Below are positions 1 to 31,478 of a DNA stretch of 31,478 nucleotides, piece by piece. The notes under the pieces are model-generated. The model saw only the letters and a list, made by a program, of their open reading frames with translations, was not told where the DNA came from and did no database searches. The DNA comes from a virus. The number at the start of each line of letters is the position of its first letter. Within the stretch, counting starts at the first letter, position 1. Location of the stretch: positions 1 to 31,478 of IMG/VR virus record IMGVR_UViG_3300036985_000856. One strand, 5' to 3'. A program made the translations under genes and the position numbers.

Positions 1-202
1 TGCTAGAAATTTGCAAAACAATGGGTTGGGTATTGTTTCAACGAAATGGCCGTTGGATTATTCAGCGTGCAATATGTAGAAACATCGACACGACAACCAT
101 TTACATTCACGATTGGAATACTTACGCAGTTAAAGAAAGTTACGAAAATAGCGCAATTGGCTCGGCTACCGACTGGTATTCAAAAACAATAAACGCAAAT
201 CC
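1..202. repeat. Terminal direct repeat, copy 1 (contig end overlap)
   Basis: Identical to 31277-31478 except base 76 (G here, C at 31352). The repeat shows that the sequence closes on itself. The difference changes a codon from TCT (Ser) to TGT (Cys) in the tail-tip gene. It is more likely an assembly overlap of a circular or circularly permuted genome than a true physical terminal repeat. Confidence 0.95.
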
Positions 203-2570
203 ATATAGCGGAATTGCTTACGGAAACGGGAAATTTGTTGCGGTTTCAAATGGTTCGTTTAGCATTATGCATTCAAATGATGGCGTAAACTGGACAAGCG
301 TAACCGTTGGGTCTTTTGGTTTATCGGACGTCGTTTATGCAAATGGCAAATTTGTAGCGGTTGGCGCTGAGTTTTCCGGAATTGACTTAATTACAAACGT
401 TCAAATTTCAACGGACGGCGTTAACTGGACGCGTTACACTCCATTTACTAACGGGCCAGCATTAAAGGCAATTACTTACGGTAATGGTTTGTTTGTTGCG
501 GTTGCAAATGGCGGAGGTAATCGAGTTGTTACCTCGCCAGATGGCATTTCGTGGACATTACGCAGCGCATCAAATAATGGCAATTCTTGGCAATCCGTAG
601 CCTTTGGAAATAATACCTTTGTGGCTATTGCAAATACTGGCACTAACCGCACAATGTATTCCAGCGACGGTATAAACTGGACTGGTTTAAATTTAAATAT
701 TGGAACAAACAAAATAATTTTTGCAAACGGCAAGTTTACAACAGGCCAAAATTATTCGACAAACGGAATTTCTTGGACAAATGCCGGAGTTATAAATTTC
801 CCTCCGTATGGAATTGCTTACGGTAATGGTATTTTTGTAGCAATTGGACAGGCTGGCACAAGTAGAATTGCAATAAGTACTGACGCTGCGACCTGGCAAT
901 TAGTAACGGCGCCAGCATTAAATTCGTGGTCAACAATAGCATACGGCAATAATAAATTTGTTGGACTATCCTCCGATGGGACTAACCGATTAATGATTAG
1001 TTACTCAAATGAAGGCCAAACGCCAGAGGTTGTTGGAGATCAAGATAATGCACAAACAAAATGGATTCCGGTAAACGCCGACCAGTTATTGCAATACCAA
1101 AGACCAATTAAAAAACTAACTTTAATACAAGGCGATTTAGGCCAGTCAGTAATTACTAACGGCGAATCGTTTAACGAGGACAGTTGGTTTTTGGAGGGCC
1201 CTTATAAGCCTTACGATTGGACAATTACGCCAGACGAAGACTCGCCAATTATTCAAATTTTCCCTAACAATATTCCTCAGCAAACCGGTTACGACGACGA
1301 ACAAGGAGTTAGTTGGGATATTAGATTTATGCCAAACGGCGAGGAAACCGACCAGCCAATTACATCTAAACCAGTTTTCTTGGACTTTGCTGGTTTAAGT
1401 CTAGACCTAGAGGTTGATATTGATTATTTAACTGAGGCTAGCGCAATGGCTATTGCGGTAAAACACGTCGACTCTGGAGGGACTGACCGCTATTTAGGTA
1501 CTACTTTAGTGGGTTCGTTTAACCTTTTGCAATGGTCAGAAACTTACAATACGTTCGTTTTCTATTCGACTAAAGACAACGACAAACGTAAATTTAAACT
1601 TACGTCGTTTGTATTGCCTACGGCTGGCTTTTTGTCTGTTGAGTTAAAGTACTTTGGGCCAACTGGCAGCGCCGTAGTTACTAACGTTAAAATTACTCCA
1701 ATATTTGAAGGGAAAAGGAATCCAAGCGAGGTAAAAAAAGTTTACCAAACGGCTCGAGATTATACCAGTATTCGCGAGGACGATTTGGTTTTTAGTGATC
1801 TATGCATTACCGCATCTAAAAACTGGCTAAAGATTGGCGAATTGCCAGCAATTGTTTTTGTTGAAAAATCCCTTGCATCAACGCCTAACATTATTCAGGT
1901 GCCAAGCGGAGCCGTTACCCAGGTTAATAGATTGACAGATACATTGGGAGCCAATACGTTAAACTTTAGCGGAGGCGTTGTAAATGGTCAATACCAGCGG
2001 CAATTTGTTGCCAGCGCTGGTTTTACTATTGATTCGACCTTTGTTTTAGTTTCTAGTTTGTCCGGAATTCCTCCTGTTGGCTCGGCAATTTTGCCGATTG
2101 TTACGACAATTTCTAGCACGCAAAGAAACCTGACGGTAACCTTTACAAATTACGATTATACAGGCGAGGCAAACGTACAATTGCAAGTCTTTTTAAAGGA
2201 TTCTAACGGCAATAATTACCAGACGTCGACGTTTCTTTTGCAAGTAAACGCCAACGGGACAATTACCTACGCTCAAACTAATATTTCATTTGAAAACCAG
2301 GCGCTTTTGGGCGGTTATTCGCCTACTTTGCGCGATTGTTACGCTCGTAACGTGTTGACTCTTTACAACGCTTTAAGTTATCGTTTAGAGGGATCATTTA
2401 GACGCAAAGGCGATACGATTGGAAACGCTTATTTACCGGTTTCTCTTAATTATTCTGGTTATACTACGGTGAAAATGCAAGTAATTGGCTGGGAGTACGA
2501 TTTTGCAACGCGCGTTGCGCGCATTACCTTTGGACAAGTACCGACCGCATACGTTTACCCAATTTCCTAA
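1..2570 (+). CDS. Tail-tip/distal tail protein with inserted seven-repeat propeller (3' part of gene crossing the contig join)
   Basis: This is the C-terminal part of a gene starting at 30664; the frame is already open at base 3, and the two parts join in frame through the 202-bp end overlap to give about 1060 residues. The Met at 21 is internal. From base 201 to about 1010 there are seven repeats of the type YGNGxFVAV...S.DGxxWT, which suggests a seven-bladed beta-propeller domain. After it comes a long beta-rich region (SWDIRFMPNG, FLDFAGLSLD) and a C-terminus ending TAYVYPIS. It follows the tape measure gene and precedes the fibre, the usual place of the Dit/Tal-type baseplate protein. I infer a role in tail-tip structure and host contact, with the propeller as a possible glycan or receptor binder. 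The fifth repeat is short and degenerate. No peptidase motif was recognised. Confidence 0.75.
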   Translation, partial: LEICKTMGWVLFQRNGRWIIQRAICRNIDTTTIYIHDWNTYAVKESYENSAIGSATDWYSKTINANPYSGIAYGNGKFVAVSNGSFSIMHSNDGVNWTSVTVGSFGLSDVVYANGKFVAVGAEFSGIDLITNVQISTDGVNWTRYTPFTNGPALKAITYGNGLFVAVANGGGNRVVTSPDGISWTLRSASNNGNSWQSVAFGNNTFVAIANTGTNRTMYSSDGINWTGLNLNIGTNKIIFANGKFTTGQNYSTNGISWTNAGVINFPPYGIAYGNGIFVAIGQAGTSRIAISTDAATWQLVTAPALNSWSTIAYGNNKFVGLSSDGTNRLMISYSNEGQTPEVVGDQDNAQTKWIPVNADQLLQYQRPIKKLTLIQGDLGQSVITNGESFNEDSWFLEGPYKPYDWTITPDEDSPIIQIFPNNIPQQTGYDDEQGVSWDIRFMPNGEETDQPITSKPVFLDFAGLSLDLEVDIDYLTEASAMAIAVKHVDSGGTDRYLGTTLVGSFNLLQWSETYNTFVFYSTKDNDKRKFKLTSFVLPTAGFLSVELKYFGPTGSAVVTNVKITPIFEGKRNPSEVKKVYQTARDYTSIREDDLVFSDLCITASKNWLKIGELPAIVFVEKSLASTPNIIQVPSGAVTQVNRLTDTLGANTLNFSGGVVNGQYQRQFVASAGFTIDSTFVLVSSLSGIPPVGSAILPIVTTISSTQRNLTVTFTNYDYTGEANVQLQVFLKDSNGNNYQTSTFLLQVNANGTITYAQTNISFENQALLGGYSPTLRDCYARNVLTLYNALSYRLEGSFRRKGDTIGNAYLPVSLNYSGYTTVKMQVIGWEYDFATRVARITFGQVPTAYVYPIS
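201..1010 (+). repeat. Seven propeller-type repeats within the tail-tip gene
   Basis: Repeat cores (YGNG, YANG or FGNN, then FVAV or FVAI, then S.DG..W) begin at about residues 67, 106, 153, 195, 234, 267 and 308 counted from the Met at base 21, a spacing of 33 to 47 residues. Seven copies fit a closed seven-bladed beta-propeller. The DNA copies are diverged, so this is a protein-level repeat and not a recent tandem duplication. The domain starts right where the terminal repeat ends. Confidence 0.75.
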
Positions 2571-13744: not shown

Positions 13745-13871
13745 AGACGAAAAACAATTGATCTTTGAAATGTGGCAAGACCGAAAACCAACAAAGGCAA
13801 TTGCAATTAAATTAAACCGGTCTTATGCTTGCATTTATTTTCAACTAAAGAAAAGGTATTTAGTTGGATAA
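13722..13871 (+). CDS. 49-aa helix-turn-helix peptide
   Basis: The frame encodes a basic peptide (MRRKILTEDEKQLIF) with a probable HTH: MWQDRKPTKAIAIKLNRSYA followed by CIYFQLKKRYLVG. The I..KL.RSYA.I...LKK part resembles the recognition-helix region of small Myb/SANT-type or homeodomain-like phage proteins. Its 3' end contains the TTGGATAA box of the promoter for the downstream RNA. The 23-nt overlap with the preceding gene and the conserved-looking HTH support it. Confidence 0.6.
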   Translation: MRRKILTEDEKQLIFEMWQDRKPTKAIAIKLNRSYACIYFQLKKRYLVG

Positions 13872-13891
13872 TTTCAAAAGCGTTATATTTG
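13864..13891 (+). promoter_or_regulatory. Promoter of the small RNA (TTGGATAATT-N8-GTTATATTTG)
   Basis: TATATTTG at 13884-13891 matches TAnnTTTG. The whole 28-nt unit has the same outer decamers and spacing as the promoter at 16151-16178, so it is a repeated design. It predicts transcription starting at about 13896-13900, exactly at the base of the first RNA hairpin. Confidence 0.75.
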
Positions 13892-13895
13892 ATAA

Positions 13896-13984
13896 ATGAA
13901 ACATCCAAGAGGTCGGAGCCTTGAATGTTTCATAGGTGAAAACCAACCAGGCCCATCGACTCCGACACGATAGGGCCTTTTTTT
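13896..13984 (+). ncRNA. Two-hairpin small RNA with perfectly complementary (kissing) loops
   Basis: Hairpin 1 pairs 13896-13909 with 13920-13933 (13 of 14 pairs, one C-A mismatch) and has a 10-nt loop, AGGTCGGAGC. Hairpin 2 pairs AGGCCC-ATCG (13949-13958) with CGAT-a-GGGCCT (13968-13978) and has a 9-nt loop, ACTCCGACA, followed by seven T residues (13978-13984), so it is also a terminator. Seven loop bases, GTCGGAG (13912-13918), are perfectly complementary to CTCCGAC (13960-13966). A 15-nt A/C-rich linker joins the hairpins. A dedicated promoter lies at 13864-13891. The RNA could be a stable regulator, or a leader that controls the initiator-like gene 8 nt downstream of the T-run by switching the terminator. 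I do not recognise a named RNA family. Confidence 0.8.
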
Positions 13985-13991
13985 ATTTCTT

Positions 13992-14720
13992 ATGCAAGGC
14001 AAAAAATCATTTGTTCTATATACCGACCAAAGAGAGGTATTTGAGGAACTAACCGACGAAGACGCTGGAAAGTTGATTAAGCATATTTTTGCATACGTCA
14101 ACGACGAAAGTCCAGAAACAAACGACAAACTTTTAAAGATTGCTTTTTTACCAATTAAGACCCAGTTAAAAAGGGATTTGGTAGTTTGGGACGAAAAAAA
14201 ACAACAACGCTCTGAGGCTGGACGAAAAGGAGGTTTAGCAAAGGCTAGCAATGCTAGCGAAGTTCTAGCAAAACCTAGCAACGCTAAGCAAAGCCTAGCA
14301 AACGTGGCTGTTAATGTAAATGGTAATGTTAATGTAAATGATAATGTTAATGTAAATGGTAATGTAATTAATAAAGAAAGCGCTAACGCACTTTTTTCTT
14401 TGGATGATATCTTTAATGATTTTAATAAAGAAAAGCCTTTAAAGCGTCCCTACTTTGAGCGAATGAGCGCAGTACATTCAACAGATACAGAAACAATTAA
14501 AAGCCATTTTAAAAAATGGGCCATAATTAAAGAAGGCGAATCAATGACAATTGCAAAAGCAGAAAACTCCTTTAACCTTTATTTGTCAAATAATTTAAAA
14601 GGTAATTTTAAGGCTGCAAAAAAAAAAGAAACTTACAACGTATTCGAGGAAATCTGGCAAGACATTCAAAAAGAAAAAGAACAATTTAAAAACAAAAACA
14701 ATGACGGAGACAATTATTAA
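13992..14720 (+). CDS. Replication-initiator-like protein (DUF6291-type N-terminus, 242 aa)
   Basis: The N-terminus (KKSFVLYTDQREVFEELTDE, then GKLIKHIFAYVND and LLKIAFLPIKTQLKRDL) is the pattern of the DUF6291-like family at the start of phage replication proteins in Bacteroidota, and is followed by a basic hinge (RSEAGRKGG). The middle holds a low-complexity VNVNGN/VNVNDN repeat. The C-terminal 100 residues (FNLYLSNNLKGNF) resemble the conserved end of such proteins. The gene contains phased CTAGCA boxes and an AT-rich repeat, as an initiator gene carrying its own origin would, like lambda O. It begins just after the terminator of the small RNA and so may be controlled by it. It overlaps the next gene by 20 nt. 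Confidence 0.75.
   Translation: MQGKKSFVLYTDQREVFEELTDEDAGKLIKHIFAYVNDESPETNDKLLKIAFLPIKTQLKRDLVVWDEKKQQRSEAGRKGGLAKASNASEVLAKPSNAKQSLANVAVNVNGNVNVNDNVNVNGNVINKESANALFSLDDIFNDFNKEKPLKRPYFERMSAVHSTDTETIKSHFKKWAIIKEGESMTIAKAENSFNLYLSNNLKGNFKAAKKKETYNVFEEIWQDIQKEKEQFKNKNNDGDNY
14231..14300. repeat. Seven CTAGCA-like boxes at 10-bp spacing (candidate iterons)
   Basis: AGCA or a near match ends at 14240, 14250, 14259 (TAGCG), 14270, 14280, 14290 (TAAGCA) and 14300, that is once per DNA helical turn. Consensus is roughly CTAGCAA. Ten is not a multiple of three, so the copies fall in different reading frames, which shows that the repetition is at the DNA level rather than a protein repeat. Confidence 0.65.
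14310..14363. repeat. Three 18-bp AT-rich tandem repeats (candidate unwinding element)
   Basis: Three units of GTTAATGTAAATGGTAAT at 14310, 14328 and 14346 (the middle one with GAT for GGT) code for VNVN(G/D)N. They lie directly after the phased boxes and are very AT-rich, the order expected of iterons followed by a DNA unwinding element. Confidence 0.75.
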
Positions 14721-30663: not shown

Positions 30664-31478
30664 ATGGCATACGGTCTAAAATATACAATACCTTTTAAAG
30701 ATATTGACGACTATTCGAACGTCGTAGAAATTTACCAGGACGGGTTTGTTGGAACGTCAACTGAATTAATTGCAACCGAGGCTCCAGCCGTTCACAAATA
30801 CGAGCGCGAAGACAACGAGGACATTACGTCCAGCATTATGTCGGCAACGCTTACCGTATCGTTTTATTCTACGGACGTAACCGATTTTAGAAATTTCTTT
30901 AGTTACTCGGACCGAGAGTTTTTGGTAATTCATAAATTTCAAGGCGACGTTGTATTTAAAGGCTACTTGTTAAACGACATTACCGGCGAGCCATTTCAGG
31001 ACCCGCCTTATCCGGTTGTAATTACCGCAACAGATGGATTGGCTCAGTTAAAAGAAATTACTTTAACAGGCCCGAGCGTTGATACGGATTTAGGAACGTT
31101 AATTTTTGACCAATTAAAATCGTTAGACCTCGAATTAGATTACGAGGTTTGTAATGATCTATATGAGGGTTTAGTTATGGACAATACTAAGTCCATTTTT
31201 GCGCAAACAATTGGCGAAAATTTGTTAGTCCAAGAATTTACCTTTGACGAATTAGGTATTAATGCTTTCGATTTCTTGCTAGAAATTTGCAAAACAATGG
31301 GTTGGGTATTGTTTCAACGAAATGGCCGTTGGATTATTCAGCGTGCAATATCTAGAAACATCGACACGACAACCATTTACATTCACGATTGGAATACTTA
31401 CGCAGTTAAAGAAAGTTACGAAAATAGCGCAATTGGCTCGGCTACCGACTGGTATTCAAAAACAATAAACGCAAATCC
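30664..31478 (+). CDS. Tail-tip/distal tail protein, 5' part (continues at base 1)
   Basis: The gene begins at ATG 30664, 3 nt after the tape measure stop, and is open to the end of the window. Its first part (YTIPFKDIDDYSNVVEIYQD, TLTVSFYSTDVTDFRNFFS, VVFKGYLLNDITG) resembles the Dit/Tal N-terminal region that sits under the tube. It joins in frame to 1-2570 through the terminal repeat, giving about 1060 residues. In the repeat, the codon at 31351-31353 is Ser here and Cys in the other copy. Confidence 0.8.
   Translation, partial: MAYGLKYTIPFKDIDDYSNVVEIYQDGFVGTSTELIATEAPAVHKYEREDNEDITSSIMSATLTVSFYSTDVTDFRNFFSYSDREFLVIHKFQGDVVFKGYLLNDITGEPFQDPPYPVVITATDGLAQLKEITLTGPSVDTDLGTLIFDQLKSLDLELDYEVCNDLYEGLVMDNTKSIFAQTIGENLLVQEFTFDELGINAFDFLLEICKTMGWVLFQRNGRWIIQRAISRNIDTTTIYIHDWNTYAVKESYENSAIGSATDWYSKTINAN
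31277..31478. repeat. Terminal direct repeat, copy 2
   Basis: Matches 1-202 except base 31352 (C versus G at 76). See the entry for copy 1. Confidence 0.95.

Follow-up and report, generated by a model that had tools for sequence, protein, structure and literature searches.

The loop of a predicted terminator is complementary to the loop of the first hairpin of the same leader RNA in an element that precedes a putative replication gene in IMG/VR virus record IMGVR_UViG_3300036985_000856. Comparative sequence analysis established the two hairpins and the loop–loop helix and placed the element between promoter and start codon; it also showed that the kissing helix is kept while its sequence varies freely. 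By the same kind of comparison, the design turns up in numerous Bacteroidota phages, with no fewer than two dozen different matched loop pairs. The element is probably an attenuator in a 5′ leader, with a kissing contact between the loop of its terminator and that of its 5′ hairpin. If this is true, the leader RNAs of phages include a widespread and so far unlisted class that is marked by pairing between the terminator loop and the leader's first hairpin. This class would connect two types of phage genes for which control of dose is plausibly needed, namely replication initiators and homing endonucleases.

The element in the window

Positions refer to the window, the whole stretch of 31,478 nucleotides that was analyzed. 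The element and the gene behind it consist of the following parts.

13864–13891, + strand: promoter of the Bacteroidota type, read from the sequence (TTG at 13864–13866; –7 element TATATTTG at 13884–13891)
13896–13933, + strand: hairpin H1 with the 10-nt loop AGGUCGGAGC, from the fold and from stem covariation in 38 relatives
13912–13918, + strand: 5′ half of the kissing helix, GUCGGAG (GTCGGAG in DNA)
13935–13944, + strand: small middle hairpin, GGU-GAAA-ACC, read from the sequence
about 13950–13977, + strand: hairpin H3, the predicted terminator stem, with the 9-nt loop ACUCCGACA, from the fold and from covariation in relatives
13960–13966, + strand: 3′ half of the kissing helix, CUCCGAC, the complement of 13912–13918
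13978–13984, + strand: U-tract (U7) of the terminator, read from the sequence
13992–14720, + strand: DUF6291 (PF19808) gene behind the leader (Pfam, 1.7e-26)

The consensus of Bacteroidota promoters is TTTG-N19-TAnnTTTG, and TATATTTG or a near variant is kept at the same promoter position in relatives. The stem of H1 is formed by AUGAAACAU/AUGUUUCAU plus CAAG/CUUG and that of H3 by GGCCCAUCG/CGAU-A-GGGCC, while the middle hairpin is longer in relatives (e.g., AGGUUAA-CU-UUAACCU). The ATG at 13992 lies 8 nt past the U-tract; in the window and in its relatives, the start codon is outside the H3 hairpin and 3′ of the U-tract. Relatives of the DUF6291 gene carry the annotation "replication protein." The folding energy of the leader was –30.9 kcal/mol compared to –19.75 ± 3.13 for shuffled sequences, of which 1 in 200 was as good. 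A simple scanner, covering sigma-70 promoters and loops of up to 8 nt, called neither a promoter nor a terminator at this element.

A preliminary description of this DNA had reported a seven-base match between the loops (GTCGGAG/CTCCGAC), a promoter ending at 13891 and a second hairpin that doubles as a terminator, and all three agree with the features listed above. Its claim that the loop match is very unlikely by chance was also upheld, as a 7-nt match arose in 159 of 200,000 trials in which each loop's own letters were shuffled, and the loops covary among relatives. The RNA had been described as two hairpins, which holds for H1 and H3 but overlooks the small third hairpin. That the RNA could be the leader of an initiator-like gene is consistent with its location between the promoter and the start codon of replication-initiator genes.

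Covariation in close relatives

Seventy viral loci were gathered by their downstream protein, blind to the RNA. The RNA was present in every locus that had a close query-like gene start and included the upstream DNA, and was absent from the distant loci L265–L272 of this set. The 38 close relatives with distinct sequences have six loop pairs between them, all perfectly matched: GTCGGAG/CTCCGAC, GTCGCAG/CTGCGAC, GTAGGAG/CTCCTAC, GTGGTAG/CTACCAC, GTGAGAG/CTCTCAC and GTGGAAG/CTTCCAC. All 266 of 266 loop cells over these sequences were paired, and none of 10,000 shuffles was as good. The stem pairs of H1 and H3 likewise showed changes on both sides. Thus, the compensatory changes that the preliminary description had proposed to look for were found in loops and stems alike, with the loop pair itself conserved. 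Spacing is tight, the halves of the kissing helix lying 39–58 nt apart in 24 diverse members.

A search with the loop left free

The pattern AGTAGAG-N8-CTCGAAAG fixes the terminator only and leaves its loop free. It was found at 118 places, 105 of them with a U-tract, and a 6–7-nt complement of the free loop lay 33–47 nt upstream in 103 of these 105 terminators, compared to 1 and 9 in the controls; one of the two non-matching terminators was cut by the end of its contig. When only distinct contexts were counted, 77 of 78 matched, while permuted loops gave a mean of 6.7 and a maximum of 14, and 23 loop pairs were represented. In an alignment (A7) of 47 members that had been pre-filtered for a full loop match, all seven kissing pairs changed on both sides with no one-sided change, and the covariation score of the whole structure was 0.563, against 0.185 for shuffled alignments and at most 0.139 when the partner was slid. 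Because these 47 members were filtered, the unfiltered count of 103 of 105 is the fair, selection-free figure. Another pattern, ACACTAC-N7-GTAGTTATTT, gained only CTGGTCC/CTCGTCC as new types.

An AGUA/GAA internal loop of H3 is near-invariant in one large group, an invariance that in the pattern-found group is due to the pattern itself, which required AGUA/GAA. The same loop in phages FCL-2, 11b and P2559S was found by other routes and is independent of the pattern. In the terminators of loci L425–L539, this internal loop is asymmetric and sarcin-ricin-like and lies beneath a 3-bp GAG/CUC stem. Loci L129 and L276 have an H3 without AGUA/GAA, with tandem UGAU/UGAU or other internal loops, and short hypothetical genes lie behind them.

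Occurrence in cultured phages

The preliminary description did not extend to the recurrence of the leader design elsewhere. The element was found in Flavobacterium phages 11b, FCL-2, FL-1 and tooticki6-1, in Cellulophaga phages phi13:2, phi18:3 and phi46:3, in Polaribacter phage P12002L and in Croceibacter phage P2559S. Model R2, for which group 2 was the training set, matched P12002L (5.6e-11) and tooticki6-1 (6.3e-9) and also phi10:1, 11b and P2559S; model R3 matched P2559S (2.1e-9), P12002L (2.3e-7) and tooticki6-1 (4.0e-6). When 24 records were scanned with the promoter as anchor and without regard to loop sequence, 15 matches had a gene behind them, compared to 3 matches in each of two control searches, and 4 of these 6 control matches fell in real elements.

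New loop pairs included CATCCAC/GTGGATG in FCL-2, GTCGTCG/CGACGAC in tooticki6-1, CGGGCAGG/CCTGCCCG in 11b, GTGAGATG/CATCTCAC in elemoA, and both GGGCTGAA/TTCAGCCC and CGTCTCAC/GTGAGACG in FL-1. The pair CCTTCAC/GTGAAGG is common to phi13:2, phi18:3 and phi46:3; phi18:3 also has CTTCTGAC/GTCAGAAG, and in copy a of phi13:2 the 5′ partner is without a clear hairpin. No convincing member was seen in Cellulophaga phi38:1 and phi13:1, crAss001, B124-14, 6H or RAP44. As the element occurs in cultured phages (11b, FCL-2, FL-1 and those of Cellulophaga and Polaribacter), it is directly testable.

Several candidate matches were rejected as chance: the weak second matches of model R2, most first-pass pattern matches of one search, and those outside the family in another. 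On the minus strand of L005, a pattern match around 202–219 has no relation to the RNA; the coding sequence there is repeat-like, with GGTCGGAGCCTTGAA repeats. An origin in hosts or prophages was also considered. In 396 Bacteroidota genomes, R2 gave one weak match (L334, E 0.002) that proved to be an ordinary terminator accompanied by a complementary arm, and a loop pattern in 297 genomes gave a single GC-rich match that was attributed to chance; this absence from host genomes is weak evidence because large-genome searches score few candidates.

Genes behind the leader

The genes behind the element differ widely and include DUF6291, DnaD-like loader, Lin1244-type, O-like initiator, NUMOD4-HNH, HNH and GIY-YIG genes. 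Relatives of the window RNA precede DUF6291 genes, a DnaD-like loader (L002) and a Lin1244-type initiator (L060). A second group, found by the loop pattern, precedes GIY-YIG and HNH homing endonucleases, with recombinase, NrdB-like or DNA polymerase genes as neighbors (the DNA polymerase was named by eye from the sequence). In Cellulophaga phages, RNAs about 96% identical stand before DUF6291-like replication genes (phi13:2 and phi19:3) and before an HNH endonuclease (phi46:3). Judged by their sequences, the genes behind the element are thus unrelated replication initiators or HNH/GIY-YIG homing endonucleases; the gene swaps and the RNA stays.

In GIY-YIG relatives that lack the RNA, about 8 nt separate a ATATTTAT-like element from the ATG. 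At GIY-YIG loci with the RNA, it is placed between the ATATTTAT-like element and the ATG, as a 5′ leader. Upstream of GIY-YIG in L284–L297, presumably from T4-like phages of Bacteroidota, the ATATTTAT-like element is a possible phage-specific promoter of a nearly leaderless mRNA. In L426, L433, L465, L493 and L503, a small protein (MERIKTIFCSSEKS...) is found behind the RNA in place of an initiator, and small proteins follow the RNA in phi10:1, phi18:3 and lillamy as well.

Diversification of the loops

Between pairs of elements whose stems differ by no more than 3%, the 5′ kissing segment differed by 32% and the unpaired linker by 24%, figures that rest on non-independent pairs. In these sequences, the loops change far faster than the stems, and in compensated pairs. 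Since two mutations are needed for each loop change, this speed suggests selection for new specificities.

Several genomes carry more than one element. Contig G413, of 102 kb, has five elements with five different loop pairs; G001 has three, and G414, G430 and G423 have two each. Two near-identical copies in G001, 1.5 kb apart, have nine differences; a compensated loop pair accounts for two of them. Distinct loops among co-resident copies are partly expected from a diverse pool.

Proposed mechanism and alternative explanations

In the attenuator that we propose, RNA polymerase would start just upstream of H1, make H1 and then the terminator hairpin H3, and mostly stop at the U-tract, releasing an RNA of roughly 90 nt. 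The remaining rounds would read through into the gene that starts 5–15 nt downstream. The loop of H3 pairs with that of H1 over 7–8 bp, and we infer that this contact sets the frequency of read-through, just as the start site and termination are inferred. No consistent upstream pairing of the 5′ arm of H3 was found in 24 members, and this lack of a shared anti-terminator helix counts against the attenuator reading. So does a geometric estimate for group 1 with a long middle hairpin, by which the linker seems not to be long enough for a straight intramolecular kissing stack.

Contact between molecules is proposed on two grounds: the loop pairs have diversified at the pace of the linker, and copies within a single genome carry different pairs. 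In that case, the terminated RNA would bind nascent RNAs made from the same element, giving dose-dependent, element-specific feedback on initiators and homing endonucleases. Such feedback in trans is a tentative extension, and we would give it rather less than an even chance. As in plasmid antisense RNAs, the diversity of the loops hints that each RNA may pair specifically with its own kind in trans. Interior loops beneath kissing loops have been named as an element of design in contacts between molecules (PMC4878617). It is conceivable, although we do not hold it to be the likelier case, that the whole forms a one-gene feedback circuit, in which the terminated leader recognizes its own nascent leaders via hypervariable loops and tunes termination by dose, and in which selection to keep co-resident elements insulated from one another makes their loops diverge. 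Such insulation would resemble that of plasmid incompatibility groups, in a circuit without any antisense gene. A contact in cis only, helping or slowing the terminator, is a simpler alternative to intermolecular pairing.

A stand-alone small RNA, with trans targets among other RNAs of the phage or its host, would suit the compact RNA with a promoter and terminator of its own and the AGUA/GAA internal loop that hardly varies in one large group. The downstream gene would then be a mere neighbor, and the kiss would stabilize the RNA or hide its loops until use. However, the element stays right before the start codon and tracks initiators and endonucleases, and its loops vary so quickly that a fixed external target is not expected. 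A stand-alone RNA is therefore unlikely.

The functional product could instead be a self-assembled RNA, in which H1 kisses H3 of the next molecule to give closed dimers or rings like those of phi29 pRNA. Each molecule does have two mutually complementary loops of 7–8 nt that would be almost wholly paired, and homotypic specificity would be expected, but no packaging genes are nearby, the second loop is part of a terminator, and the location before endonucleases and initiators does not fit; we regard self-assembly as quite improbable. A sensor or antitermination site, at which a host or phage protein or a ligand bound to H1 or to the internal loop of H3 switches termination and the kiss is scaffolding only, draws on the likeness of the invariant AGUA/GAA loop in the largest group to a G-bulged motif, which is often protein-binding or docking. 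That loop is missing from other groups, including the window and L129, and there is no shared aptamer-like core, which makes such a site very improbable. Chance, an ordinary terminator or a coding leader peptide can hardly be credited: chance is excluded by the loop covariation, and although H1 of the window begins with an ATG that opens a 25-codon frame, this frame is broken by linker indels (an insertion in L002) and the ATG is missing in relatives, which rules out the peptide.

Comparison with known systems

The covariance models of Rfam 15 at the gathering cut-off gave no match in the window (best chance match E 0.3) and none across 13 loci with members, the ROOL and GOLLD models being unmatched too, and no description of a kissing-terminator leader was found in the open-access literature that was searched. 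The suggestion in the preliminary description of a regulatory RNA of new type is therefore supported by the absence of such a family from Rfam, and the loop pair is kept through many compensatory changes.

Compared to known RNAs, the leader has several distinguishing features. First, phi29-type pRNA is a small phage RNA with two mutually complementary loops that covary between phages; it occurs once per genome near the packaging genes and works in the motor. The leader resembles it only in the mutually complementary, covarying loop pair. The pRNA is longer and lies near packaging genes, whereas the leader is framed by a predicted promoter and terminator, occurs up to five times per genome and lies by initiators and endonucleases. 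Second, pT181-type attenuators have kissing hairpin loops whose specificity defines orthogonal variants (PMC4878617, PMC3753616). The plasmid repC leader of pT181 and the leader described here would share a terminator before a replication-initiator gene and kissing hairpin loops. In pT181, however, an antisense RNA transcribed from the opposite strand is the partner, and the terminator has a competing anti-terminator. In the leader described here, the conserved partner is the loop of the same RNA's own terminator, although an additional antisense transcript may exist, and no shared anti-terminator was found in 24 members. Third, homing endonucleases of the T4 type (I-TevI, mobE and segB) are held down by structured RNA or terminators (PMC2988022), but there a single hairpin hides the ribosome site or the structure lies inside the gene, in contrast to a two-hairpin kissing terminator before the start codon. 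Fourth, ROOL and GOLLD are phage-linked RNAs that form large homo-oligomers, with covarying kissing loops acting between molecules (PMC12286853); they have hundreds of nucleotides and a different fold and lack a role as terminator leaders. Attenuators and kissing loops are thus known as parts, while their combination with fast loop diversification matches no family tested here. The natural set of at least two dozen matched loop pairs therefore lends itself to testing what tertiary contacts do in intrinsic termination, and orthogonal parts could be drawn from it.

Other observations in the window

At the ends of the window (3–2570 and 30664–31476), the last reading frame enters a near-copy of the first (LEICKTMGWVLFQRNGRW...) with one Cys/Ser difference, and the record looks terminally redundant with polymorphism. 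Within the DUF6291 gene, positions 14300–14370 hold a repeated stretch encoding NVNGNVNVNDNVNVNGNV, which is common to several relatives.
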